Of a stretch of DNA of 64,000 nucleotides, positions 1,281-47,600 are shown one piece after another. Made by a program: the position numbers and the translations under genes. The notes beneath the pieces were generated by a model that had not been told where the DNA came from, did no database searches, and saw only the letters and a program-made list of their open reading frames with translations. The number at the start of each line of letters is the position of its first letter. Within the stretch, counting starts at the first letter, position 1. Origin of the DNA: Amyelois transitella (Eukaryota; Arthropoda; Insecta; Lepidoptera; Pyralidae); NCBI RefSeq assembly GCF_032362555.1, contig NC_083508.1, positions 3,377,001-3,441,000 of the forward strand. The letters are read 5' to 3'.

Positions 1281-1553
1281 TACCAATTACAAAACTATAG
1301 TCCATAAAATATAGCTCCGTCTTTGTAACAGCAGGATGGAACGATATCTTATCTAGGAATAGGTAGGATCAAGACATACTGAAAAGTGTATACATTTTAC
1401 ATCTGTTACAGAGATCAAGCTATGTATATTTAAAGATTATAATTACATGTGATCTCTATACTTTGGCAGCCTTAAACAATATTTTTTAGATTATTTATTT
1501 AATAGCGGTTAGTCAAATATAGGCACCACCAGGATACTGAAAATATTACTTAC

Positions 1554-4500
1554 CGATAGCCCGCGAGACTGCCAGCTGCCCGTTGACTCTCCACGTACCC
1601 CAGTACATGACAGTACCTCCGGACGCTTCTATTCGTTCCCTTTCGTCCTGCGAACATTTATAAAGGTGAAATATCAACATTATCTTTGCTGCAAGAAGTC
1701 CATTTTTCATTACACAGATTGAGCTAGCCGCAAAGTACCAAGTTGGAGTCTTATGTTACGGGATACTAACTCAACGCGACTATATTCTATCCTCCTCGAG
1801 TCGCTGTCCTCATTTCTATGGGTCGTGATTCTCTTGTTGCGGGATGCTCTTGGTCCGGACACTCCTCGCTACTTGTTTCACCCTTGGCCCTGTGAAGAGC
1901 ACCGTGAGGATTGGTGACATCCTCTTGGTCATTTTCATGTTCATGAGCTGATCGAGGTTATTTCCTTCTTTTTTTAAATTCTTTATTATAGGTACTATAT
2001 TCGATAATACATACTTAAAAAGATAAAAATCCAAGAAACGAACCAATAAAAAAAAATTGTTTTCATAATGACCGGGGATCGAATCCGGGGACTTTTTGGT
2101 TCATCCTGGACGGCTTGTGCGGCCTCACGAGCTGCATGAGGCGCATCCTCTTGGCCAGCAGCGCCACTCTCTATACACACAGCACAGAGCAGCCTACCTG
2201 CCTGGACGGCTTGTGCGGCCTCACGAGCTGCATGAGGCGCATCCTCTTGGCCAGCAGCGGCACTCTCAATACACACAGCACAGAGCAGCCTACCTGCCTG
2301 GACGGCTTGTGCGGCCTCACGAGCTGCATGAGGCGCATCCTCTTGGCCAGCAGCGCCACTCTCTATACACACAGCACAGAGCAGCCTACCTGCCTGGACG
2401 GCTTGTGCGGCCTCACGAGCTGCATGAGGCGCATCCTCTTGGCCAGCAGCGGCACTCTCAATACACACAGCACAGAGCAGCCTACCTGCCTGGACGGCTT
2501 GTGCGGCCTCACGAGCTGCATGAGGCGCATCCTCTTGGCCAGCAGCGGCACTCTCAATACACACAGCACAGAGCAGCCTACCTGCCTGGACGGCTTGTGC
2601 GGCCTCACGAGCTGCATGAGGCGCATCCTCTTGGCCAGCAGCGCCACTCTCTATACACACAGCACAGAGCAGCCTACCTGCCTGGACGGCTTGTGCGGCC
2701 TCACGAGCTGCATGAGGCGCATCCTCTTGGCCAGCAGCGGCACTCTCTATACACACAGCACAGAGCAGCCTACCTGCCTGGACGGCTTGTGCGGCCTCAC
2801 GAGCTGCATGAGGCGCATCCTCTTGGCCAGCAGCGGCACTCTCAATACACACAGCACAGAGCAGCCTACCTGCCTGGACGGCTTGTGCGGCCTCACGAGC
2901 TGCATGAGGCGCATCCTCTTGGCCAGCAGCGCCACTCTCTATACACACAGCACAGAGCAGCCTACCTGCCTGGACGGCTTGTGCGGCCTCACGAGCTGCA
3001 TGAGGCGCATCCTCTTGGCCAGCAGCGCCACTCTCTATACACACAGCACAGAGCAGCCTACCTGCCTGGACGGCTTGTGCGGCCTCACGAGCTGCATGAG
3101 GCGCATCCTCTTGGCCAGCAGCGCCACTCTCTATACACACAGCACAGAGCAGCCTACCTGCCTGGACGGCTTGTGCGGCCTCACGAGCTGCATGAGGCGC
3201 ATCCTCTTGGCCAGCAGCGCCACTCTCTATACACACAGCACAGAGCAGCCTACCTGCCTGGACGGCTTGTGCGGCCTCACGAGCTGCATGAGGCGCATCC
3301 TCTTGGCCAGCAGCGGCACTCTCAATACACACAGCACAGAGCAGCCTACCTGCCTGGACGGCTTGTGCGGCCTCACGAGCTGCATGAGGCGCATCCTCTT
3401 GGCCAGCAGCGGCACTCTCAATACACACAGCACAGAGCAGCCTACCTGCCTGGACGGCTTGTGCGGCCTCACGAGCTGCATGAGGCGCATCCTCTTGGCC
3501 AGCAGCGGCACTCTCTATACACACAGCACAGAGCAGCCTACCTGCCTGGACGGCTTGTGCGGCCTCACGAGCTGCATGAGGCGCATCCTCTTGGCCAGCA
3601 GCGGCACTCTCAATACACACAGCACAGAGCAGCCTACCTGCCTGGACGGCTTGTGCGGCCTCACGAGCTGCATGAGGCGCATCCTCTTGGCCAGCAGCGG
3701 CACTCTCAATACACACAGCACAGAGCAGCCTACCTGCCTGGACGGCTTGTGCGGCCTCACGAGCTGCATGAGGCGCATCCTCTTGGCCAGCAGCGGCACT
3801 CTCTATACACACAGCACAGAGCAGCCTACCTGCCTGGACGGCTTGTGCGGCCTCACGAGCTGCATGAGGCGCATCCTCTTGGCCAGCAGCGCGAGGGAGT
3901 CCCCGGCCCAGGCGGCGAGCAGGCGACGTCCGCGCACCGCTACCGCCACGGCCGTACTGCCGCCGCATGCTCTCTGTACAAGGATAAATACAACATAAAA
4001 TTAATACGATGTCATCTTTTTGAATAAAATCCAAATCGACCTACATGAATGTCAGTTAGCGTGGTAAGCTACAACCTGTGCTGGTTGTGGCATGCGGCAT
4101 CCACAATTTTAACCACAGTCATATCGCGAGCTACAAACCTACACAACAAAGAAAAGAGTAATTGGTAGCCGTAGCCTTTGAACGGGTACGCTTACGAGTC
4201 AGATCTCTCAACTCGTCCAAAAGCTAGTATAATATACGTTCAAGTTCTCTCACCTCCTGATTACTCTTCCGGGTGAACTCCGCATCAGTCCTTAGGAATG
4301 CTTCTTTCATAGATTTCTGCAGGTCGGTAGTGAAATGCGGGCTTTCCACTAAGTACTGGTGCAAATGCGCGGCGCAATACGTGGCGGCGGCGGAGCCCGC
4401 GTGCCCGTCGTATACGGCGTAGAAACTCGTCGTTTCTGTCGCCTGAAGAATAATAATGAAAAATGTTTATTTTTTTCTCTAAGTAAATAAAATACGCGTA

Positions 4501-7500
4501 AGGCGTACATATACATAAACACGTCTTTATCCCTTACAGGATAAACAGAGCCAAAATGCTCAATAAGACTTTAAGACCAAGGCCAAGGCGAGCTATATGG
4601 CTTATTATTTAATTGAGATAAATTAAATTAATTGCGTTTAATTGAACTTTTGCAATACCAGCACGACGTAAACCAAATACAACAAAAAGATAAATTCATA
4701 AAATTGGTAATCTCTCGGCGTAACGCGTAAAATGAATAAATTGAATTTACATGATATGATAATAGTAAAGTTATTAGCGGACAGCCTTTGTCTATTAATC
4801 GCCAAATAATGCGTAGGGTAGGGTGCGCTATCATGCATTATCACACACCATGGAATGAATGTTGATTGAGAGCATTGTGGGCCTAGCTTAAGGCAAGAGC
4901 CGGCAGTTGACAAGGTGTGGGTCTTTCTAACCACGCAAGCGCCAGCCGTGATATGTCTTCACTTGAGTTTTGATTACGCATGACAAACTTCAAGTCTCTC
5001 GACCAATGTTGAAATTGACGACTTAAGCTTTCAAGTTTTTGCATCATTCTTCTGGGGTTCTTAGTAACACATTAAACAGTCTTCAGTCATCTCGCCTCCA
5101 AAGGCTAGACAAGATGTAAAACAAAGGAAACACTCCTCAATACCAAACAGCGCTTTCAAGTTGGAAATCTCTACATGTCTATCCTCCATCACTCTTCTAG
5201 AGTTCTTGGTGGTACACGAAACAGTCTTCAATTTACGTTGATGCAAGGGCGGCGGCGACAGTATGTCCTGCTTAGAGTTGTCTAGGTATCGCAGACAGAC
5301 ATCAATTAGCGAATGGATTAAGATCTAAACGTCTCACTCATCATATCAAATTTTCTGCATTCCCAATTGTTAGCTTAGAGCTTTCTATGAACTGTCGCTA
5401 AAGAGAGTCAGTCAATTATAACCTGCGAGACACCAACTTTGGGAAACAACAATCTTTAGACCCCTCGACTCTTACTTAAATTAAATCAGATGTAAGTTAA
5501 AAGAAACCTACCTCTATACCAAACAGCGCTTCTAAGTTTCCGATCTCAACATGCCTATCCTCCATCACTCTTCTAGAGTTCTTGGTGGCACATGATACAG
5601 TCTTCAGGTCACGCTGCTGCAAGGGCGGCGGCGGTGGCAGTGTGTCCAGCTTAGAGTTGTCCAGGTATCGCAAACAGACGTCTATCACTCGGGCCGTGAC
5701 CGCCTGCATTAGCCGAAGGGCTATGTACACTGGAATTGGGAATTTCATAAAATTCAAATTCAAATTATTTATTGCAAATGTAGGTAACACAAGGGATGTT
5801 ATATACATATAAATAGTACCGCTACATTTTACCTTTCGGCATGCAATTACTGAAGTTCAGATTTTATAAAATAAATAATAATTAATTCAATGTAATAAGT
5901 CAAATAGTATGCACAGTTCAGTTATACAATTCAATATAATAATTTTATGTCAATATCAATTATAAAAAATACCAATTTATAAAATGTCTGAGAGATATTC
6001 GTCAATGCTATAATATACCTTGTTTTTTAGCAAATTTAGGACACTACGTTTGAACTCCACATAATATAATGACAGTATGTCATTTGGTAAATGGTTATAC
6101 AACATACATATAAATTAGTTGTTCTGCTGGACAATGAAAATACGGCTTTATGCAGCCTATGTTTGATAGATTAATGGTATTATTTTGTCAGTTGTGCTGG
6201 TAGCCCGAAAATATTATTTGTGTAAGGGAGGGAAACGTTCATATTGAATTTGATAATGTCTCCCAATTTTCTATGCCGTCTAAGAAGCCAAAGCGCTGAT
6301 AATAAGCCTTTGCAAAATCATGTACATTAACACATTGTATATCTTAGTACTCCTGGGTATAGAATCATAACTGTTGAGATATAACTGTGTTGTAGAAAGG
6401 TATCAGGTATTACCCAGGTTAATATTTGATTAAATAAGTTATGAGTTCTGCCGTTTTCGTTGACATACCGCAGGACAGAGAGCGTGAAATGAGCGCTTTC
6501 TCGAAAACAATTCTTTCAAATTACCTAATAAAACGAAATTAATTCACATTTTGCAGAAAAATTTACTGATTACCAAAAAAATTGCTACTTAAAATTCAAA
6601 TAAACGGGTTTTCTCGTCAGCAGAATAGACTAGTGATGTAAGTACGACATAATGCAAAATTTCCTGGACTTCACATATCTATCGATTGGCGGTATCCCAC
6701 CAACATAAAACAAACGATCAACCGACCATAGACCGGCGGTAACGTCACTGTAGGCACAACACAAGTTGTGATAAGTGTTATCATTATCGCGATCTTAGTA
6801 TGTGCAAACAATGACTTTACTATTGTAGTTCTGCATGGCGCGACTCGACTACATACATATGTACATCGTGAATTGCGTAATGTTTGGGCTAACAGCAACA
6901 CTGCAGACGGGCATGCCAATAGTTAATAATAAACGAGATCGATTGTAAATAAATGTTGACACATTGGTCACGTATAGTGCGACAAGTGGAACAAACAGAT
7001 TGGACCCAGCCACCGTATCGCAGTTTAGCACTAACAATCATTTACATAGTAATTTGCGTCGTGAGTATTCAATGAGTAGGTAGTAATATCAAATTTTGTG
7101 CATTAAAATGAGACATACAAGTTCATTACATCATATAAATGTGAATTCACTTCCAGAATAACTTCTTCATAGCAAATTTGATTAATATAATTCCTAAAAT
7201 GGAAATTGATAAACCTTTATTGATAAAAAAGATCACCTCCTCTTTAACCTTTTAATATTAATACAACGTACCTGATTCGTCAGCTTTGTACCCAAATTCA
7301 TTGGGTTGTTTCTTCGATGCGACTCGCACTTCGTCAAGTATGATCCGCCGCAGCGGAGTCATCAGTGTCAGGGGACATTGCCTGGAAATTAAATGGATTT
7401 TGGTATCAGTTACAATTCTCTGAATACTTCATCTTGTCTTTAGATCTACGATCCCTCCTTTTTTATACAAAATTCAAAATTGTAATTTTGTTTTAGTTTA

Positions 7501-10500: not shown

Positions 10501-13500
10501 CTTTGATGATTGCCGAACTTCATGACTGAAGATGTAACAAGATAAAAACGTTAATGGCTTCCAACTTTACAAGTCTACACTGAAATAAATAACTACTTTG
10601 CTGATGGTGCTTGCGTGATTTCCATAAAATATGTAGACCTTAACTTTTATAGTAACAAAATGTTACATCACATGTTCATGGAGCCGAAACTTATGCCACA
10701 ATTTTTACAAAGATCATAAGTTTTAGTTGGTGATGTAACATACAATAGTCACTCCCATAGGTATAGACAACTGACTGGACGACAGAACGGAATACATATA
10801 TAATAGAGATGGAACTTCGATACCCAAACAAATCATAACAAATCATACAAGATGCATATATTACCAATTTATGACGGGTGCGATAACTGTCAGCATCAGT
10901 TAGCGTTTAAAATCTTTCCAGCCTAGTTAACTCGAAAGCGATTAGATAAGTGAATGTATACAGTTTCCTGACTATTATTATGGACTTGATTGTAGGTATG
11001 GTTTGGACACACCTACTGATGTAGATAGTATTTTTTTCTATATGATTCATTGTATTAGGGTTTTTTTTAAATATAGTTTAAAGCTTAGGATAGTATGACA
11101 ACTTCGTGTTTTTTTTTAATGGAAATACAAGATTTTCAATTAAAATTGAAAGTTTCAACCAAAATTATTCAAGAAAAACAATTTTTTTTTTCAAAATGTT
11201 ACACAGCCCTTAGGTAGTTACGATGTTCCGATAAAATTAGCGTGTATAACTTATCCCTTAGCAGAGCAGGTGCACGGACCACAAGTGCGCATGCCATCTG
11301 TCAATATCGGGGTTAATCGAATAGCTCGAATAACTTCCCGCTGGCATGTACTACATGCTTTCTGTGTCAGGCCTGCAGTGAACTAGTTAGCATAAATTTA
11401 TGATACATGATTCCATTTTCCATTCCATAAAACAAAAATTTCAATTAAACATTGCCTTTTTCAGTTTAATGGACACGCTACTTCCATTTAACTTTAATTT
11501 GAGTAAGAAAGTTGAAATCGCGGTATATTCCTGGTCATAGTCTGAATTAATATGGGTAAAACAATGCGTATAAACTAGAGAATTTATTAACTTATCCTAT
11601 AACGAGATGACGAGACGGCAAAAAGTAAAAGCTAGTCTTACAAATTCTCTACGAATTATTCAAAACCACACTTTGCTAGTTAATTTTCACTCCTGCAATG
11701 AAGCAATTACTTACAATTACAAGAGGGGAAAAAATAGTGCAATTACGATTCGATTGGCGAATGACGGAAATAATGACTTTCCAAAGAAATCGAACAGCAC
11801 TGTTCGTTGTTGCCAAAGGAAAGCTTTGTAAATTTAAGTGTGTAAGGGAACAAATAAGAAGTTATTATTAGGAAGCTATTAACTTATCTTCGAATCTTAA
11901 ATTCACTTCTAAGCTAAAGTAATATCCAATTAAAAGCTCGTGTCTTTATTTATTTTGAATTTACTGGCTTTTACTCCGTAAGAGATAAAAACGTGGTATT
12001 GTATGTAAATTTATGCCATGTATGTAGTTTTGTATATACCATATATAATACTACTACAATAATACTACTACATGTGTCTCATGCAAAGTTTTCCGCAATA
12101 AAACCTGCGCATGAGCAAGACTCTTGTGGTTTACGCATCCAAGCCAAGTTAGCAAACTGTTGTCAGTTTGGACGTCACGCGATGAGTAACATGATCTACG
12201 TAAGTATATCCCATACTTATTTATCCTGTTACACTGTGAGACGATTGTTTCATAACGCTAAAATTGAATATTTAAATTATTGTAGGCTTAATTTTATCAA
12301 TTTAAAGTTTATTTTATAACTGAGTAGGTGTAAGCAGTGTAGTTGCTATGGCGTACATAAAGAAGGTTGCCTTCATATGAATCATTTAAGAAATTCTTTC
12401 TAAATTATTTCACAAAGTAGGTATTATATAAATACAATACCCGTCCCAAGCTCTCTTCTAGAATCTATATCATCAATTTTAACGAACGGAATCCAGGTTA
12501 AATTATTCTGCTCAAATAAAGATTTTAGTTTTAGCATAAGACAGACATCGGTTGGGTTAATATTAAAAATGATGGAAACAACGTAGAAAATTTGCATATT
12601 ATGTAGATATTCGTCCTTCTTTTTCAATCTAATTACGCTTTTAAAATGAACATTGTCAATGTCAAGGCAAATAACACAAGAATATTTTAGTACCTCCATT
12701 CCGTACCATACCTACCTACCTGCTACTATATTTAAATATTCTTTCGGTTTCATGCCGGTCTTGCATATGACAATTCTAACACTTGTACAAATGTTTATAG
12801 ATTGCATAACAAACTTGAGAAGTCTGGTTAAGGTTAATGTAAAGTCTGATAAAGGTTCCTATTGGCCAGAAGAAACGTAGGTATCTAACGATATTATTGA
12901 CAATAATATTCCGAATACCTTTGTAACACGGCAGGTCTAAGCCCAAAATTAAAGTATGAACAAAAATCTTAGAATCTTAGTAAAAACGGGACCCTATAAC
13001 TAATTCTCCACTGTCTGCAGTGCATAAATGCAATAAATGCAGTGGAAATGAGAGCGTTAAGGAGTATGATGGGTGTGAAATTGAGTGACCGGATAAGGAA
13101 CAGCTTGATAAGGGAATGTTGTGATGTGAAAGAAGATGTTGTTACAGGAATAGAAAAGGCTATGTTAAGATGGTTTGGTCATGTGGAGAAGTTGAATGAA
13201 AGCAGGTTGACTAAGCAGATATACAAGGAGAATGTGGAGGGAAAGGTCGGAGTGGGAAGACCTAGACGAACGTATCGTACCGTACGTATCGTACGTCCTG
13301 ATAAAGAGTCAGGTCAAGAGTACCCGAAACCGCCGAGCTTGCATGACGAGAGTTATGAATGTGGATGAAACGAAGGAAGTATGCAGAAGTCGTGGCAAGT
13401 GGAAAGAGGTAGTCTCTGCCTACCCTCCGGGAAAGAGGCGTGATTTTATGTATGTATGTATAAACATGTAAAAGGAAACTTCTGTACACTATATATTTTT

Positions 13501-15326
13501 GCTTCTTCAAAAAGCCAGTAACCCAACCTGTATCAGCAACCTTGACCCACGCCAGAGAAGTTTGTTGAACGTTATTCGGCGCCCGACGCTTAATTTATTA
13601 TTAATCCTGCATATACCTACTTCGGGCGGCTGTTACTTTTAAATTTTGCGTTAGGTAAAAATACTGATGGCGATAACTTACTATCATAAGGAGGGGCGCC
13701 CTTTGAATCGGCTGGCTTACCAAGCGGTATCCGCTCGACTAAATTCATATTCATACATACATAAAATCACACATGTTCCCCGAGCGGTAGGCAGAGAATA
13801 CATTCAGACATCCAAAATTATTAAGTTACTAATTCAGACCAGTGAAATAGCTTCTTAAATTATACTTATATCACTTGTCCCAACTTCAATAATGGATCAT
13901 TAAAGACATTAAATTTAATCAAGTTAAATACATAATAAAGAACAAAAGAAACTTTGTTAAAGGAAGACATTCTGATTTATGACGAACCTAACCTGACGTG
14001 ATTAAGGTAAATGATGCGTGAAAGAAGGAACCAAGGAATACTATGGGGCCCATATAACCGTAAAATTGCGTACATTTGTAAAAGCCAACCAATGGAAAGG
14101 CTAATAAACATGGGATTTTTTTTTATATTTGCTTATCTTTAAAGAAGCCACACCAATCTACTACTAGAGTATAATTTATCAGTCTCCACAATGTGCAACC
14201 TTTAGTTGTCATTTCATTTAGTCCATCCACAGGTACATAGACATTAATTATGAAGAATAGAATGTGTGTTTGTCAAGAAGACTTATTCTTATCAGTCTAT
14301 TTCAACTTTTCAATAAGAAATCCTTGCTGTTAATATAAACAAGATATATTAAGTAAAAGAAATAAGATTGTTTGGCAAATAAAAGTTTTCACAAAAAGTG
14401 TGGAACCCTGCACCAATAGAAAAAAGAATAGGATCACTCCATCTCTTTCCCATGGATATAGTAAAAGCTTAAACTTAAGATTCTTCTTTTAGGCAACAGG
14501 CTAGCAACCTGTCACTATATGAATCTCAATTCAATCATAAAGCCAAACAGCTGAACATGGCCTTTCAGTCTTTGGATGACTGTTGGCTCTGTCTACCCCA
14601 CAAGGGATATAAACGTGATTATATACTATGTATGTATGTCCACAAAAAGTCAAATATCTTTTTTTTGCTGATACCCTAAGGTTCTGTGTGTATTGTAATT
14701 GGCATATTGGAGAAAGAAACAAAAATATCTATAAATGTAAAGAGAGCTAACATATAAACTTTACATATCTATGTCAAGAGAACTTGCAGGGATGCCAAAC
14801 ATCAAATAATAGTGTCAAATTGTTGTAATGGAAATACATACCATCAAACACAATTTTTCATGTAAATTCCGACCTAGAATGAGTTGATGTCCTTAATCTT
14901 TTTTTTTTTTTTGTAGAGGTTGAAATAATAATTTGTTGTCCCATTCCAAATGATAATATATCTTGAATTAAGTATATACTATATGTACACAAATTAATTC
15001 TTAGGGAGGCACCTGTTTTAAACGGCGACTAATAAATAATTATGAATGGAACTTATTTATGAATAAGTGGAAACATATATATTTTAATGGAGAGAACTAT
15101 GTACACGTTATCAGATTATTTAGACTCTTGAAGCAATAAAGATATTTTTTACTTACTTTTCCGTCAAATATTGAGTGGTCCAATACAGAACTTCGCCCGG
15201 CAACTCTGCTTCTGTTATGGTATATCCTGCGATGTGGACAGGTAGCTGATCTTCAGGATTCACAGTAGCAGCAAAATTCTCAAAAAACACTCGGTAAGAT
15301 GTCAAATAATCCTCCTTATCGCCCAT
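1554..15326 (-). CDS. PPM1F: PP2C-family Ser/Thr phosphatase, PPM1F/PPM1E (POPX) type; C-terminus outside window
   Basis: Metal-dependent protein phosphatase. Mammalian PPM1E/F dephosphorylate CaM kinases and PAK; the insect substrate is not readable here. Coding exons on the minus strand: 15326-15157 (start ATG, opens [18 protein letters not shown]), 7381-7272, 5720-5512, 4442-4254, 3973-3830, 1647-1554. All junctions keep phase and give 305 codons plus one base. Visible PP2C motifs in order are [26 protein letters not shown] (metal-binding DGH with A for the usual second G), a WAGDS core, [19 protein letters not shown] and [14 protein letters not shown]. The text matches the PPM1E/F subgroup rather than PPM1A/B or ILKAP by the RRxMEDRH and RPH..R..DE.ERIEA..G stretches. 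The DGxxD/DN metal motifs of the C-terminal third must lie left of position 1554; I see no exon for them in 1-1553. The intron after exon 5 holds the 96-bp array. PPM1E versus PPM1F is not resolved. Confidence 0.9.
1648..2103 (-). repeat. tRNA-like SINE head and tail in phosphatase intron
   Basis: On the minus strand 2100-2070 contains GGATTCGATCCCCGG, a good RNA polymerase III B-box/T-arm sequence, followed by poly-T-rich text. A similar head with GGGTTCGATCCCCG occurs at 36570-36600 followed by a similar T-rich segment. The rest down to 1648 has one 76-codon open frame with no recognisable domain, which I treat as chance or SINE body. Confidence 0.45.
2104..3894 (-). repeat. 96-bp tandem array made from a phosphatase exon end plus its 5' splice site
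   Basis: About 18.7 head-to-tail units of exactly 96 bp. On the minus strand each unit is the last 60 nt of phosphatase exon 5 (peptide [20 protein letters not shown]), then the donor CAG|GTAGGC, then 36 nt of intron. The highest-coordinate copy is the functional exon end (donor at 3829). Units differ only at two sites: C or G in the AGCGSCACT stretch and T or A in the CTCWATACA stretch. The lower edge breaks within a copy at 2104, a few bases before the donor, and runs into a tRNA-like SINE head. Because 96 is divisible by three, long spurious reading frames stay open on both strands. The unit is exon-derived, not a conventional satellite. Confidence 0.95.
4500..4570 (-). repeat. Fragment of the abundant 260-bp retroposon family
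   Basis: Contains ACACGTCTTTATCCCTTACA and GGATAAACAGAGCCAA, matching the 3' tail of the retroposon defined by the full copy at 59879-60136. It lies in the intron downstream of the DGH exon of the phosphatase gene. 4571-4984 shows nothing else. Confidence 0.5.
4985..5300 (-). pseudogene. Decayed tandem copies of phosphatase exon 3
   Basis: The block 5140-5300 aligns base for base with functional exon 5720-5512, roughly from its [11 protein letters not shown] part to the exon end. It still encodes [16 protein letters not shown] and [20 protein letters not shown] on the minus strand without a stop. Its donor is changed: the functional GAG|GTAGGT is GAGGAGTGT here, so it should not splice normally at that point. 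A third, much more diverged fragment at about 4985-5100 matches the same exon around the SRRVMEDRH and KTVSC segments. This could be a mutually exclusive exon using another donor, but the lost donor and missing 5' part favour relic status. Confidence 0.75.
5721..7271. other. Phosphatase intron 2, no recognisable content
   Basis: AT-rich intron between coding exons 7381-7272 and 5720-5512. Only short chance open frames are present and I recognise no repeat family. Confidence 0.5.
13030..13465 (+). repeat. 5'-truncated RTE-type LINE (best preserved copy here)
   Basis: Encodes [20 protein letters not shown], then [20 protein letters not shown] and [12 protein letters not shown], typical of the region after the polymerase domain in RTE-like LINEs. 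A frame change follows near 13270-13300, where an internal ACGTATCGTAC repetition interrupts the reading frame. It then continues to the shared 3' end (CCTCCGGGAAAGAGGCGTGA, then GTATGTATG). Dead fragment. A short reversed tail of the same family lies at 13745-13800. Confidence 0.75.
14398..14640 (+). repeat. Retroposon of the 260-bp family, near full length
   Basis: Starts GTGTGGAACCCTGCACCAAT and ends ATGTATGTATGT. It matches the complete copy at 59879-60136 in reverse orientation through the blocks CACTCCATCTCTTTCCCATG, GCTAGCAACCTGTCACTAT and GTTGGCTCTGTCTACCCC. Confidence 0.8.
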
Positions 15327-35600: not shown

Positions 35601-38600
35601 GTAGTGCAAGTTACTAAAGAACAAAATCACTACATAGTATAAAACAAAGTCGCTATCTTAGTCTGTTTGTCTGTATGCTTAAATCTTTAAAATTACGCAA
35701 CGGATTTGATGCGGTTTTTTGTAACAGGTAGAGTGATTCAAGAGGAAGGTTTTTATGTATAATAACAATTAAAATTTTGCACCCGTGCGAAGCGAAAGGC
35801 GGGTCGCTAGTATTGTTATAATCTTAATAATATAGGATCTTGTAAAATGCTAATAAACTCTTCTTTAAGGCGATGGGCTAGTAACCTGTCGCTATTTGAA
35901 TCCCAATTACATCTTTAAACCATCTGAAAGAGACCTTTCACTCTTTGGGAGACTGTTGGCTCCGTCTACCCCGTAAGGGATAAAGACGTGTTCATGTGTG
36001 TGTGCTAGATGCATGTAAACGCTGAGGGAAAATATCGCAAGTAAACCCGCAAATTGAGGCAAGTGGATGTGTAACCTTGATCAAATATGAGTAAGATTCC
36101 CCAGCAAAGGATGCGGAGGTCAGATTTTTGAAGTTTATAATGAACAGACAAAGGCAGCACGGGACAGATAACCTGACTCACCTAATAGGTATAGGATCCG
36201 ATGGTCTCAGTTTTGATTTTGAACTCTTCTTTGGTGAAAACGCGTTGTCTAATTCGTCTAGGTTGTCCTGAAAAAAGAAAAACATTATCTGAATAAGGTA
36301 CATATATGTATACGTATAATCGTGTTAACCCCTTACGTCGAAGACAAAGCCAACAGTCTTGGAAAGACTGAAATGCCACTTTCAGCTGTATGGTTTATCG
36401 ATGGAATTGTGATTCAAATAGTGACAGGTTGCTAGCCGCATTCGCATTCGAATCAGTGCAATAGAGAGAGAGATATAAGGAAATTCTAATAGTGAAAAAA
36501 AAAAACAAATAAAAATAGTAAAAACAAATAGATATATATCCAAAAAGAAATTTACAAACAAAAAAAAAGTAATTCATTTTCGGGGATCGAACCCGAGCAC
36601 TCCGACATGAAAACCGATCGCTCATAACGATACATCATCAGTGAAGCGGTAGCAGCGTCGAAATTATCGATCCCTAGTGACCATCTTGTATAGGGAAATG
36701 ATTTTGGGTGAAAATATGGGAAAGAGGATTTTTTCGCGACGTGGGACCCGGCTATATCTATGTATGGATGTATGTTTTTTTTTATATACTAAAGTGTTAA
36801 GTTAGCAATATTTTTCCAAGATTGAGTTTTCTAGATTAATTGTTGACAAAGTCGCCGATGGGTACCTGCTATTTGATACAGGTACAATGGATGTATGTTT
36901 GGATGTATGTATGGATGTATATATGGATGTATGTATGGATGTATATATAGATGTATGTATGGATGTTTGTAGATAACACTCACTGGTTGCAGTGTCTCCT
37001 GGCTCGCCATTTGGTCGTCTTCGCTTTCTTCCTCAATACATTTCACCTCGTCTGAAGAACTCTGTTGGAATGCACCAAGCAATATTAGCTAAATGTACAG
37101 TGTTACCACTTTAATAAAATAAAAATCAACATTTTATTCAGAAATAAGGCCTTCGCAGGCACTTGTTCCCGTCATTTTAAATTTTCATAAATTTATACTG
37201 TCCGTTTGCGGGTTCAAATGGCGTGAATATTATGAGAGAGATAGCAGGAGAAATTTTGTTTTTCGATTTAGTGTCACTTAGTGTTAACAACTCAGCATAA
37301 AAATGTTAGCCGTGTGGTTTCCGGCACTTTATAATAGAACCACTCCGTCTCTCTCCCATGGATGTCGTAAAAGGCTAGTAAGAATCCCAAGCCTATCGCT
37401 TAGGATTCCTCTTGTAGACGATGGGCTAGCAAACTCTCACCATTTGAATCTCAATTCAGTCGTGAAGCCATACGGCTGAATGTGGCCTTTTACTCTTTGA
37501 AACATTACATCTTATATATAAAATTCTCGTGTCACAATGTTTGTCTCCGTACTCCTCCGAAACGGCTTTACGGATTTTAACCAAACTTTGCATGCATATT
37601 CAGTAGGTCTGAGAATCGGCTAACATCTATTTTTCATACCCCTAAGTGTTAAGGGTTGTCCACCCTTAACATTTTTTTTATAATTCTATACAATTCTTTT
37701 ATTTTTTGCAAAACAGCGTTAGCCCGGTCAGCTAGTATATGTATAAGCGCGTTGGCGATGTTACCGAGTTGTTGGTGGTGGAGTGGTTGCGGCTGTGCGG
37801 CCGGAACCCCGGGCCCGGCGGGAGGTTCTTCTGCACGCAGCAGTTCACGCCCGGGCTGAAGTGCAGCTCCACGTGGAACCTGTGGAACCACAGTTAACAT
37901 GCAGTTTTAACATAAACTAGCTGTCGCAACCCGCATCTTTGTCCGCGAATAATGTGCTCTGTTTGATTTCCATTTTGACCATTCCAAATTTTAGTAGTGA
38001 ATAAAAAATATCCAACACATCCATAACTACAGAAATTTATAAGAGAAAGCTAGAAATCGACACCAGAATATACCTTAGTTAGAAAGATTTTTTTCCTGCA
38101 TAACATAACATATAATGACGTCTTATCCCTTGCGGGGTAGACAGAGCAAATAGTCAGCCAAAGACTGAAAGGTCACGTTCAGCTGTTCAGCTTAATGATA
38201 GAATTTAGATTCAAATAGTGAGTTTGCTAGCCCATCGCCTTAAAGAGGAATCCTAAGTTTATAAGCCTATAGGTATAGGCTTATAAACTTAAGTGATCAC
38301 CTTCCTATGTGATGTTTAAAGTTATAATTTTAAACATCACGAAGGAAGGTTCCTACGTGATGTTTAAAATTATAACTTTGCCTATTTCGTAAAGAAAAAA
38401 ACGGAAAGCCTTACCTTTCTTCAGAGAAGGGGTCTTTAGTAGGATCTTCGTATAGCATAACAACAATTTGGGACATGTAGTTCAGCTCGGAAACCATCGA
38501 TACGTATTCCATAGCCCGCCGCCATTGCTCGTCTTTCAGCACCTAGAAAATAGATTTATATATTTCTACTTGTAAATAGGCTGAATAAGTTAAGATCAAG

Positions 38601-44600: not shown

Positions 44601-47600
44601 GCTATAAACGCGTAGAGTCTATTGCCACAGGTGTCAAACACAACTAGACAGGTCAAGTCGCGTACAGTACTACCACTTTTATAAGTTGCATCGGCAATAT
44701 TCGATAGCGCAGAATAGGGTCACCTACAGCTCATTAAAAAATTCAATCAAATAACTACCTTATTACATATACATTAAACTCAAAATCCAAAAACCAAAAT
44801 TTCTTCTGCTATCTCGCTCATAACAACGTACAGTTCAGTTCGCGAGTTCAAACGCGCTCTGATAGGCTGAAATATTTTCGCGCCATTCAAGAATGATACA
44901 GCCGTGTAACTTATAAAAGTGGTGATATTGTATTTGGGGCAGAAGCTCGTGCAGACCGTGGTGGTGGTGCGGCGTGGGCGGGGCGTTACCGTCGTCCGAG
45001 CTGGAGCCCCGAGGCCGGCCCCGCGGCTGGTACTTCATCTGCACCTTGCGGTTGATGCCGGAGAAGTGGCCGTACCTGGAATTTTTCTTTTTTATTCAAT
45101 ATTTTATTTGTTTTCCATCTCATCTGATGGTAAGTGACGATGAAGACAAAGAAGTTTTAAGGGTTCGGTATCGTAAGCATAAAACGGGACACTACTCCTG
45201 GGACTCTTTTTTTCTGTTCGGCTAACATCAGGGTATCTCATGACACCATGATAGCTGGACACTCGATTTTTTTTTTCATAGATGGTGTATTTCTATTACA
45301 ACAACAAATAATAGTAAAAACGAAAATCAAATAAATTTGAATTTATTTGACTATTCAATTTCACCTTTATTTGTAAGGTTTCTCAGGGTTTCTCTAAAAA
45401 AATTGTACATGAAAACTACTAGACGAGGCAGCACTCACATCCCCAGCACTTATCTGGGGGGTCGGCGTGCCTCGCGTGGATCGGCCAGTAGAGTTATTGT
45501 TCTTAGACACTAACAGATTGTACTAAAGTACCGGGGTATGAAGCAGTAGGAACACTCACATCTCCAGCACACTCTTCAGCTGCTCCAGCTTGCCCTGCTT
45601 CTCCTCAATCTCGGGGTCGGCGTGCCTCGTGTGGATATCGGCCAGTAGGGCTCGTGCGATGTCCAGTATCTCTTGCAGTTGCTTCGGCTTCTTTAATTTT
45701 ACGTGCCCGCGTTTGAAGCCCTCGTATTTCTCGAAGATTTCGAAGAATCTGAATAGAATATTATTTATATCATTTATTTGTCGTCACTCTTATATTTAAT
45801 ACCTGTTTACACGTCAATAACTTTTCTATATTGCCTTCTTTCACATGACATGACATCCTTGATTCGAACCTTTGGAAGCGTCAAACAGCATGAATTTTTT
45901 TAGTTACTTATGGATTTATTTAATAAATAACTAGATTTAATTCACTTTCTCACCTTGGATGTCTCACTTCAACCTTCATCTTTTGCTTAGGCGTCCTGTC
46001 TCCATGCCTAATCACCCCCACGACACATCTCAGCTCCATCATCTTCCCGAAAGTCGTGGGTACAATCGGGGGGTCGTCCAGCTGGAAGGGTACCGACCAG
46101 GGGATGTGCAGCGTCGGCGCTAGCTCCCGAAGGATCATGTTCCCGAGTATTTTCGCGCAGTCATCGTAGTATTTGTTCGAGTTCTTCACGAACGAAAAAC
46201 CGTTTACGTCGCACACGAACGATTTGCCGTTAGCCCTGAAAAATATTAAAGATTATTAATATACCTTACTTATCTTGATCAAATTAAGGACGTCCTGGTA
46301 AAGGGTCAGGTCAAAAGTACCCGAAACCGCCGAGCCTGCATGAAGAGAGTTATGAATGTGGAAGAAGCGAAGGAAATATGCAGAGATCGTGGCAAGTGGA
46401 AAGAGGTAGTCTCTGCCTACCCCTCCGGGAAAGAGGCGTGATTTTATGTATGTACTAGAGGCCGCCCGCGACTTCGTCCGCATGGAAACCCTATCAATCC
46501 CGCGGGAACTCTGGGATAAAAAGTAGCCTATGTGTTATTCTGGGTCTTCAGCTACCTACATACCAAATTTCATGGTAATCGGTTCAGTAGTTTTTGCGTG
46601 AAAGAGTAACAAACATCCATACATCCATACAAACTTTCGCCTTTATAATAGTACTAGAGGCCGCCCGCGACTTTGTCCGCATGGAAACCCTATCAATCCC
46701 GCGGGAACTCTGGGATAAAAAGTAGCCTATGTGTTATTCTGGGTCTTCAGCTACCTACATACCAAATTTCATGGTAATCGGTATAGTAGTTTTTGCGTGA
46801 AAGAGTAACAAACATCCATACATCCATACAAACTTTCGCCTTTATAATAGTAGTAGGATAGCAGGATTATCAATATTCAAAGGTAGTGTTAATGGGAACG
46901 CTTAAGCTCTTGTTTCGATTTATACTATTACCAGAGACCAGAAAAGTACTCTATGATCACTTTATTTTTTCCTAATTTTCTTATATCAAAATTAATGAGT
47001 GATTATGTATTTTTTTGTTAGAAACCAAAATACAATACAAATCAAGTCATTGGGTTGCTGGCAGAGTCTCACTGGACCATTTCCACTACCTTTATCAGGA
47101 ATCGACTAAAGTGCGATTTTATACCTTACAACTAATACATCGTATTGCCCAAGGCATGTTTGTGTTACGCTGACCGTTTTAACGCAATTTACCAAAGATG
47201 AATCTTACACGGAACTTTCATCGTACATGCAACTAGAAATAAAAAAGTGTAGACGATGTCTACAGGTACGATACGTCAGGTACGATGTATACGGTTCATA
47301 GTTAGTTTACTGTTAGGTCGTAAATGGCAGATACTGTGACAACTAGTATTTTACTTTGGTATAAGTAATCATTTCATATGTTTCCTTAAAATCTACATAC
47401 GGGATAAACATTGTACATTGTACTTAAACACTTGATAATATAATGACGTAAGTATACAACAAATTAGTCTATAACGACGTCGGCAGGCTCAAATATTGAC
47501 CATATTACACCATACAAAGTGAACTAATTGTTTGCTTGCGTTATCATGCGCCGGCGCACGATCCCCGGTCAGTTAATAATATGAAGAAGAATGTAGAGTA

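Follow-up and report, generated by a model that had tools for sequence, protein, structure and literature searches.

A coding exon of a moth phosphatase gene is followed by a tandem array in which the end of that exon and the start of the next intron are repeated, each complete copy with the same donor splice site. Where such an array comes from, which of its splice sites could be used and what this would mean for the protein are the questions raised by this locus, and we addressed them in the window, that is, the whole stretch of 64,000 nucleotides analyzed. The arrangement amounts to a natural competition among 18 identical donors, with the same exon context and a near-identical intron context, in one intron, and cDNA of the gene would reveal the effect of position alone on donor choice.

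The host gene and the anatomy of the array

We traced four exons of the host gene (A to D), which have GT-AG borders throughout and join into a single open frame (Table 1). The coordinates that the initial annotation had given for the exons on either side of the array were confirmed and belong to exons C and D, whose splice sites read cag/AGAG...GGCAG/gtaggc and cag/GAC...ATCG/gtaagt, respectively (the slash marks the exon border); the intron between them runs from 3829 to 1648 (2,182 nt). The Pfam family PF00481 (PP2C) was above the cut-off in the stretches of exons B, C and D and gave no match in that of exon A, and the joined 214 residues matched PP2C proteins among the solved structures, with a PPM1K chain as the best match (E 8.1e-21) and one match (4da1_A) beginning at residue 35, within exon A. 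The motifs DGH and GDS lie in exons A-D and DGLWD in a further exon, which follows outside the window and carries YKPYVTARPE...ACDGLWD; we take all three to be PP2C metal-binding motifs. To the left of exon D, two stretches searched for additional PP2C exons gave no Pfam match. On account of the PP2C matches, the GT-AG borders and the further DGLWD exon, the host gene appears intact over the traced exons, and our impression is that it is presumably PPM1F-like.

Table 1. Positions of the features discussed (numbered within the window)
Feature	Position	Strand	Basis
Upstream exon A, 218 nt	5512..5729	-	Frame open across A-B-C-D; no Pfam match alone
PP2C exon B, 189 nt, DGH motif	4254..4442	-	Pfam PP2C on 4224-4466
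PP2C exon C, 144 nt, from which the unit's exon part derives	3830..3973	-	Pfam PP2C, stretch 3803-4000
True exon-proximal donor CAG/GTAGGC; 17 repeats follow, ending with the one after base 2198	3824..3832	-	
TAG, in frame, within the first piece of intron; stops the frame if any of donors 2-18 is used	3803..3805	-	
Candidate mini-exon of 69 nt, phase 0, the first of nine (TATAG/...CAG/GT)	3734..3802	-	Sequence only, weak acceptor
96-bp tandem array, 18.6 copies	2105..3891	-	TRF and unit listing
SINE-like repeat copy	1709..2104		Genome search; alignment of four family copies
PP2C exon D, 94 nt, next downstream exon	1554..1647	-	Pfam PP2C on 1546-1755

The intron that follows exon A holds a decayed partial duplicate of that exon (5306-5112 against 5685-5488, 83% over 198 bp), in which the donor has been lost (GAG/GTAGGT against GAGGAGTGT), and after it a third fragment, of 45 bp, at 82%. 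The decayed duplicate gives the host gene a second, older exon-end duplication.

TRF described the array with a period of 96, 98% matches, 0% indels and a score of 3469. Read on the minus strand, its unit is made of the last 60 nt of exon C and the first 36 nt of the intron, so that TRF and the unit listing bear out the exon-plus-intron repeat reported initially. The donor CAG/GTAGGC occurs 18 times on that strand at an exact 96-nt spacing, with the last exon base at 3830 in the first case and at 2198 in the last, and the 19th copy ends after CCGTCCAGG, without a donor. The initial annotation had counted about 18 extra copies of the donor; the repetition is real, but the donorless 19th copy leaves 17. 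About 1,725 nt (3829-2105) of the 2,182 nt of the C-D intron are array.

The units are almost identical. All 19 copies agree in nt 1-57 of their exon part, and across the 18 complete units only two positions vary, each in the intron part: one reads TATAG or TATTG, the other, at the unit end, GCG or CCG. Three intron types result, namely TAG/CCG (3/18), TTG/CCG (8/18) and TAG/GCG (7/18); TAG is thus present in 10 units, and the TTG of the remaining 8 leaves the exon frame open. The confinement of both variable sites to the intron part is not significant alone (P = 0.14), and selection on the array cannot be judged, as only two sites vary. The order of the unit types is irregular: the strongest lag was three units (P = 0.086, eight lags tried), and as to a higher-order pattern, the longest repeated run was not unusual. 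Such a pattern would be expected of a young array that slippage or unequal exchange has homogenised.

Long open reading frames run through the array (681 aa on the minus strand, 659 and 651 aa on the plus strand) and were rejected as evidence of a protein in view of shuffles of the unit: at least three open frames were found in 1143 of 4000 shuffles and at least four in 214 of 4000, and the TAG-type and TTG-type units have three and four, respectively. The Pfam matches of the 681-aa frame contain no stretch that passes by itself, and we regard them as repeat artefacts. DNA folding of one unit showed nothing special (z 1.29).

Splice sites, reading frames and possible effects

The predicted pairing of the array donor with U1 (-10.7 kcal/mol) is stronger than that of three other donors of the gene (-9.9, -9.7 and -8.8 kcal/mol). 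On the minus strand, 0.6% of 3690 GTs pair as well or better, the 18 array sites included, and the best GT outside the array within the intron stretch 1648-2104 reaches -6.3 kcal/mol. Acceptors were ranked against 3493 AGs by a simple score. Four real acceptors of the gene fell in the top 0.1, 0.9, 5.1 and 6.6%, TATAG in the top 16.6% and CAG/GT, when read as an acceptor, in the top 23.1%. Judged by U1 pairing and these scores, the array is donor-rich and acceptor-poor. The TAG-type units are weak acceptor-like sites, which were absent from the initial annotation and alter what the array could encode. U1 snRNP is very abundant and the array offers 18 sites in one gene; the sequestration of U1 snRNP that had been suggested for it is for this reason unlikely.

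Donor 1 leads to the normal PP2C frame, whereas each of donors 2-18 (17/17) brings an in-frame stop 27 nt beyond the true exon end, the TAG at 3805-3803, which lies 69 to 1605 nt ahead of the respective junction. The claim that only the first donor gives full-length protein therefore stands for simple donor choice, and it does so because the first unit carries TAG, although the TTG units are open. In addition, CAG/GT places an AGGT every 96 nt, a spacing divisible by 3. With AG/GT in each full copy, splicing from unit to unit would leave the mRNA unchanged, and the array would in this sense be buffered. If exon D, with its 94 nt, were skipped, the reading frame would change.

These properties bear on the possibility that the array is a regulated decoy, in which its donors, perhaps together with decoy exons that have TATAG as acceptor, engage parts of the spliceosome but are not spliced, and so lower or tune the phosphatase mRNA through intron retention or nonsense-mediated decay (NMD). 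Its 18 donors pair well, and the TATAG of 10/18 units gives nine TATAG...CAG/GT pairs, candidate intronic 3'/5' splice-site pairs with a weak acceptor, which could act as 69-nt decoy exons. Moreover, OGT is among the genes whose decoy exons are reported to favour intron retention (PMC12017769), and the accessible part of the ABCA7 study describes an expression that declines with the length of the variable number tandem repeat (VNTR) (PMC5954066). Against this, the rank of TATAG as an acceptor is poor beside that of the four real ones, selection is not visible in the two variable sites, and the RNA fold of two units is ordinary (z -0.29), all of which makes a regulated decoy unlikely. The broader notion of a working splicing device, in which copy number and the TAG/TTG variant set the amount and form of the phosphatase, we hold to be clearly improbable; if true, TATAG acceptors and CAG/GT donors would make as many as nine decoy exons or in-frame mini-exons of 23 residues.

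An assembly artefact, with fewer copies or a single one in the real genome, appears distinctly improbable. A near-identical array of 1.8 kb can be mis-sized, but the irregular order of three unit types argues against an artefact, as does the position of the array inside a 13.2-Mb contig of a 33-contig assembly; the copy number itself may still be off.

Splicing of TATAG to CAG/GT would turn the units into an array of mini-exons, each adding an in-frame 23-residue module that starts RV(P/A). All nine 69-nt candidates are in phase 0 and free of stops, for if TATAG is the acceptor the TAG stop is itself spliced out, and the pyrimidine share at TATAG (0.59) is the same as at exon D's real acceptor. 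The acceptor scores, however, lie below those of the four real acceptors, other AGs are found a short way upstream (CAGGTAGG), neighbouring units are separated by no more than 27 nt of intron, which would require units to be skipped, and the insertion would land within the catalytic domain. We consider such mini-exons highly improbable.

Origin of the array and its surroundings

The entry of an old, dispersed satellite into the gene is scarcely credible: with a 201-base array query, all 8 matches in the moth's own genome (327,366,114 bases) fell within this array, at the sensitivity of a search that scored the best candidates only and skipped very common words, and the unit's exon part encodes a piece of PP2C. 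Within the window, no match to the unit was found outside 2000-4000. A 28-base piece of the unit gave 0 matches in viral_contigs and 0 in genome_contigs, which says little, an insect gene being expected in neither. The exon part aligns with ordinary PP2C proteins in solved structures, which makes the exon the source and the array the derivative.

The distal end of the array adjoins a truncated SINE-like repeat, so named from tRNA box motifs, which we take to be a mark of a SINE. A genome search with 1650-2110 returned 42 matches (best 40 of 407 candidates scored), one of which was the locus itself. Thirty-nine of the 42 covered all or most of 1709-1790 at 83-87%, one further match covered 1792-1913 at 79% and one 1993-2089 at 73%, the latter beside one of the 39, all among the best 40 of 407 candidates. 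Four family copies align to the window over 1709-1790 and then from about 1952-1993 to about 2089-2096, with an identity of 83-85% in one of the two parts and of 66-71% in the remaining one. These alignments suggest that the copy in the window ends on the array side before its tRNA-like end is complete, and that some 200 bp of foreign sequence were inserted into it near 1791-1992. As the array units differ at no more than two positions, against this divergence of the family, the array is younger than the repeat it adjoins.

The stretch 1791-1992 is flanked by similar letters (ACTATATTCTA / ACTATATTCGA), and its part 1792-1913 has its 79% match at one place on contig C8. By eye, a tRNA-like fold was noticed at 2036-2104, at the distal array end and within the SINE-like family stretch; ARAGORN gave 0 matches on the window, and Rfam gave 0 on 1500-4200 at E up to 5. 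Elsewhere in the window, TRF found a 199-bp unit in two tandem copies (46452-46856, 98% identical) and a 12-bp repeat, ATGGATGTATGT, in 7.1 copies (36887-36971). The DNA just ahead of the 199-bp pair (46268-46455) is matched at 1097-1283 and 13293-13456, and an interspersed family of about 250 bp has many copies (at 14398, 35188, 54443, 59878 and others), which are 66-93% identical among the matches listed.

Taken together, these results point towards a young minisatellite that probably arose in situ where exon C meets its intron, in a PP2C gene that otherwise looks intact, and would be spliced away. In the GCG-type units, the GCG at the unit boundary is identical to a GCG of the exon flank, and the first duplication may have used this 3-bp identity of the flank with bases 34-36 of the intron, a possible seed. 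Slippage or unequal exchange would then have amplified and homogenised the unit, and the distal end would have become fused to the older, truncated SINE-like repeat. One point speaks against so simple a history: duplication alone does not account for the loss, at the distal end, of the original intron beyond base 36.

In such a gene, the exon-proximal donor would give the normal mRNA, and the array would be removed together with its intron; if a later donor were used now and then, the transcript would meet a stop 27 nt beyond the exon and would probably be a target of NMD. We infer that the array is not under selection, and a minisatellite with no function of its own, possibly with a small cost or a quantitative effect, is the most likely reading. 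By analogy with ABCA7, the first donor should be dominant, and the risk would lie in a loss of exon D from the mRNA. Silence of the array is not guaranteed, as longer ABCA7 arrays go with more exon skipping and lower expression. In DOK7, SRSF1 prefers the intron-proximal of two donors in the available text of that study (PMC5585400), and a similar effect in the host gene would pull away from the first donor.

Comparison with known systems

The locus is not without parallel in the literature: the ABCA7 VNTR, catalogued human boundary repeats and the tandem splice sites of UBC and VCX3A have all been described. The closest likeness is to the VNTR in intron 18 of human ABCA7, whose first two bases are, in the accessible part of the report, the donor of exon 18 (PMC5954066). 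There, retention of a single unit (2 +/- 1%) brings a stop and is independent of length, long alleles raise the skipping of exon 19, and the alternative forms jointly exceed the canonical one in 90% of the samples from one brain region (PMC5954066). As in ABCA7, the moth array consists of tandem units that include the donor of the exon they directly adjoin; in both it begins at that donor, the first donor is (in the moth, would be) the canonical one and use of the next leads to a premature stop (PMC5954066, as far as its available text goes). The ABCA7 unit, in contrast, is described there as 25 bp of intron only, out of frame and in about 12 to 427 copies (PMC5954066), whereas the moth unit has 96 bp, includes 60 nt of coding exon, is in frame and provides 18 donors.

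Other systems share single traits with the array, each as described in the accessible text of the source. UBC and VCX3A likewise have tandem units, in which AGGT serves as donor or acceptor; the UBC unit is also a multiple of 3, and copies can be spliced out without a change of frame, but UBC units are wholly coding, whereas 36 of the 96 nt of the moth unit are intron and its AG side has a poor acceptor score (PMC10809524). In human segmental duplications, repeats at exon-intron boundaries are likewise minisatellite units that modify introns, with 27 intron modifications retained on manual inspection; they differ in being paralogs, with an average of 4 copies of 30 bp (PMC2812944). Tandem duplication of an AGGT segment leads to intron gain in the Rogers model, ATP2A1, fission yeast and a potato variant, where copied splice-signal sequence also creates repeated splice sites; the moth array, by contrast, lengthens an existing intron (PMC4974935). 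The decoy exons of OGT intron 4 are alike in that extra intronic splice sites could delay splicing (PMC12017769). The VNTR of the miR-137 gene was rejected as a parallel, its novel donors lying in the pre-miRNA and not being described as repeat units in the available text (PMC6692358).

Exon-intron border repeats, a donor-bearing VNTR, dual-use splice-site repeats and AGGT intron gain are thus already in print. As far as the literature searched goes, which gave no donor-bearing tandem array in an insect and is weak evidence of absence, what is new is the insect setting together with a unit that combines 60 nt of catalytic-domain coding sequence and a donor in 18 near-identical copies. The end of a coding exon has here been multiplied with little expected harm, which bears on intron lengthening and on the origin of repeat-bearing genes. 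If the array is a silent VNTR, as we think most likely, it would be an insect counterpart of the human disease-linked class represented by ABCA7.
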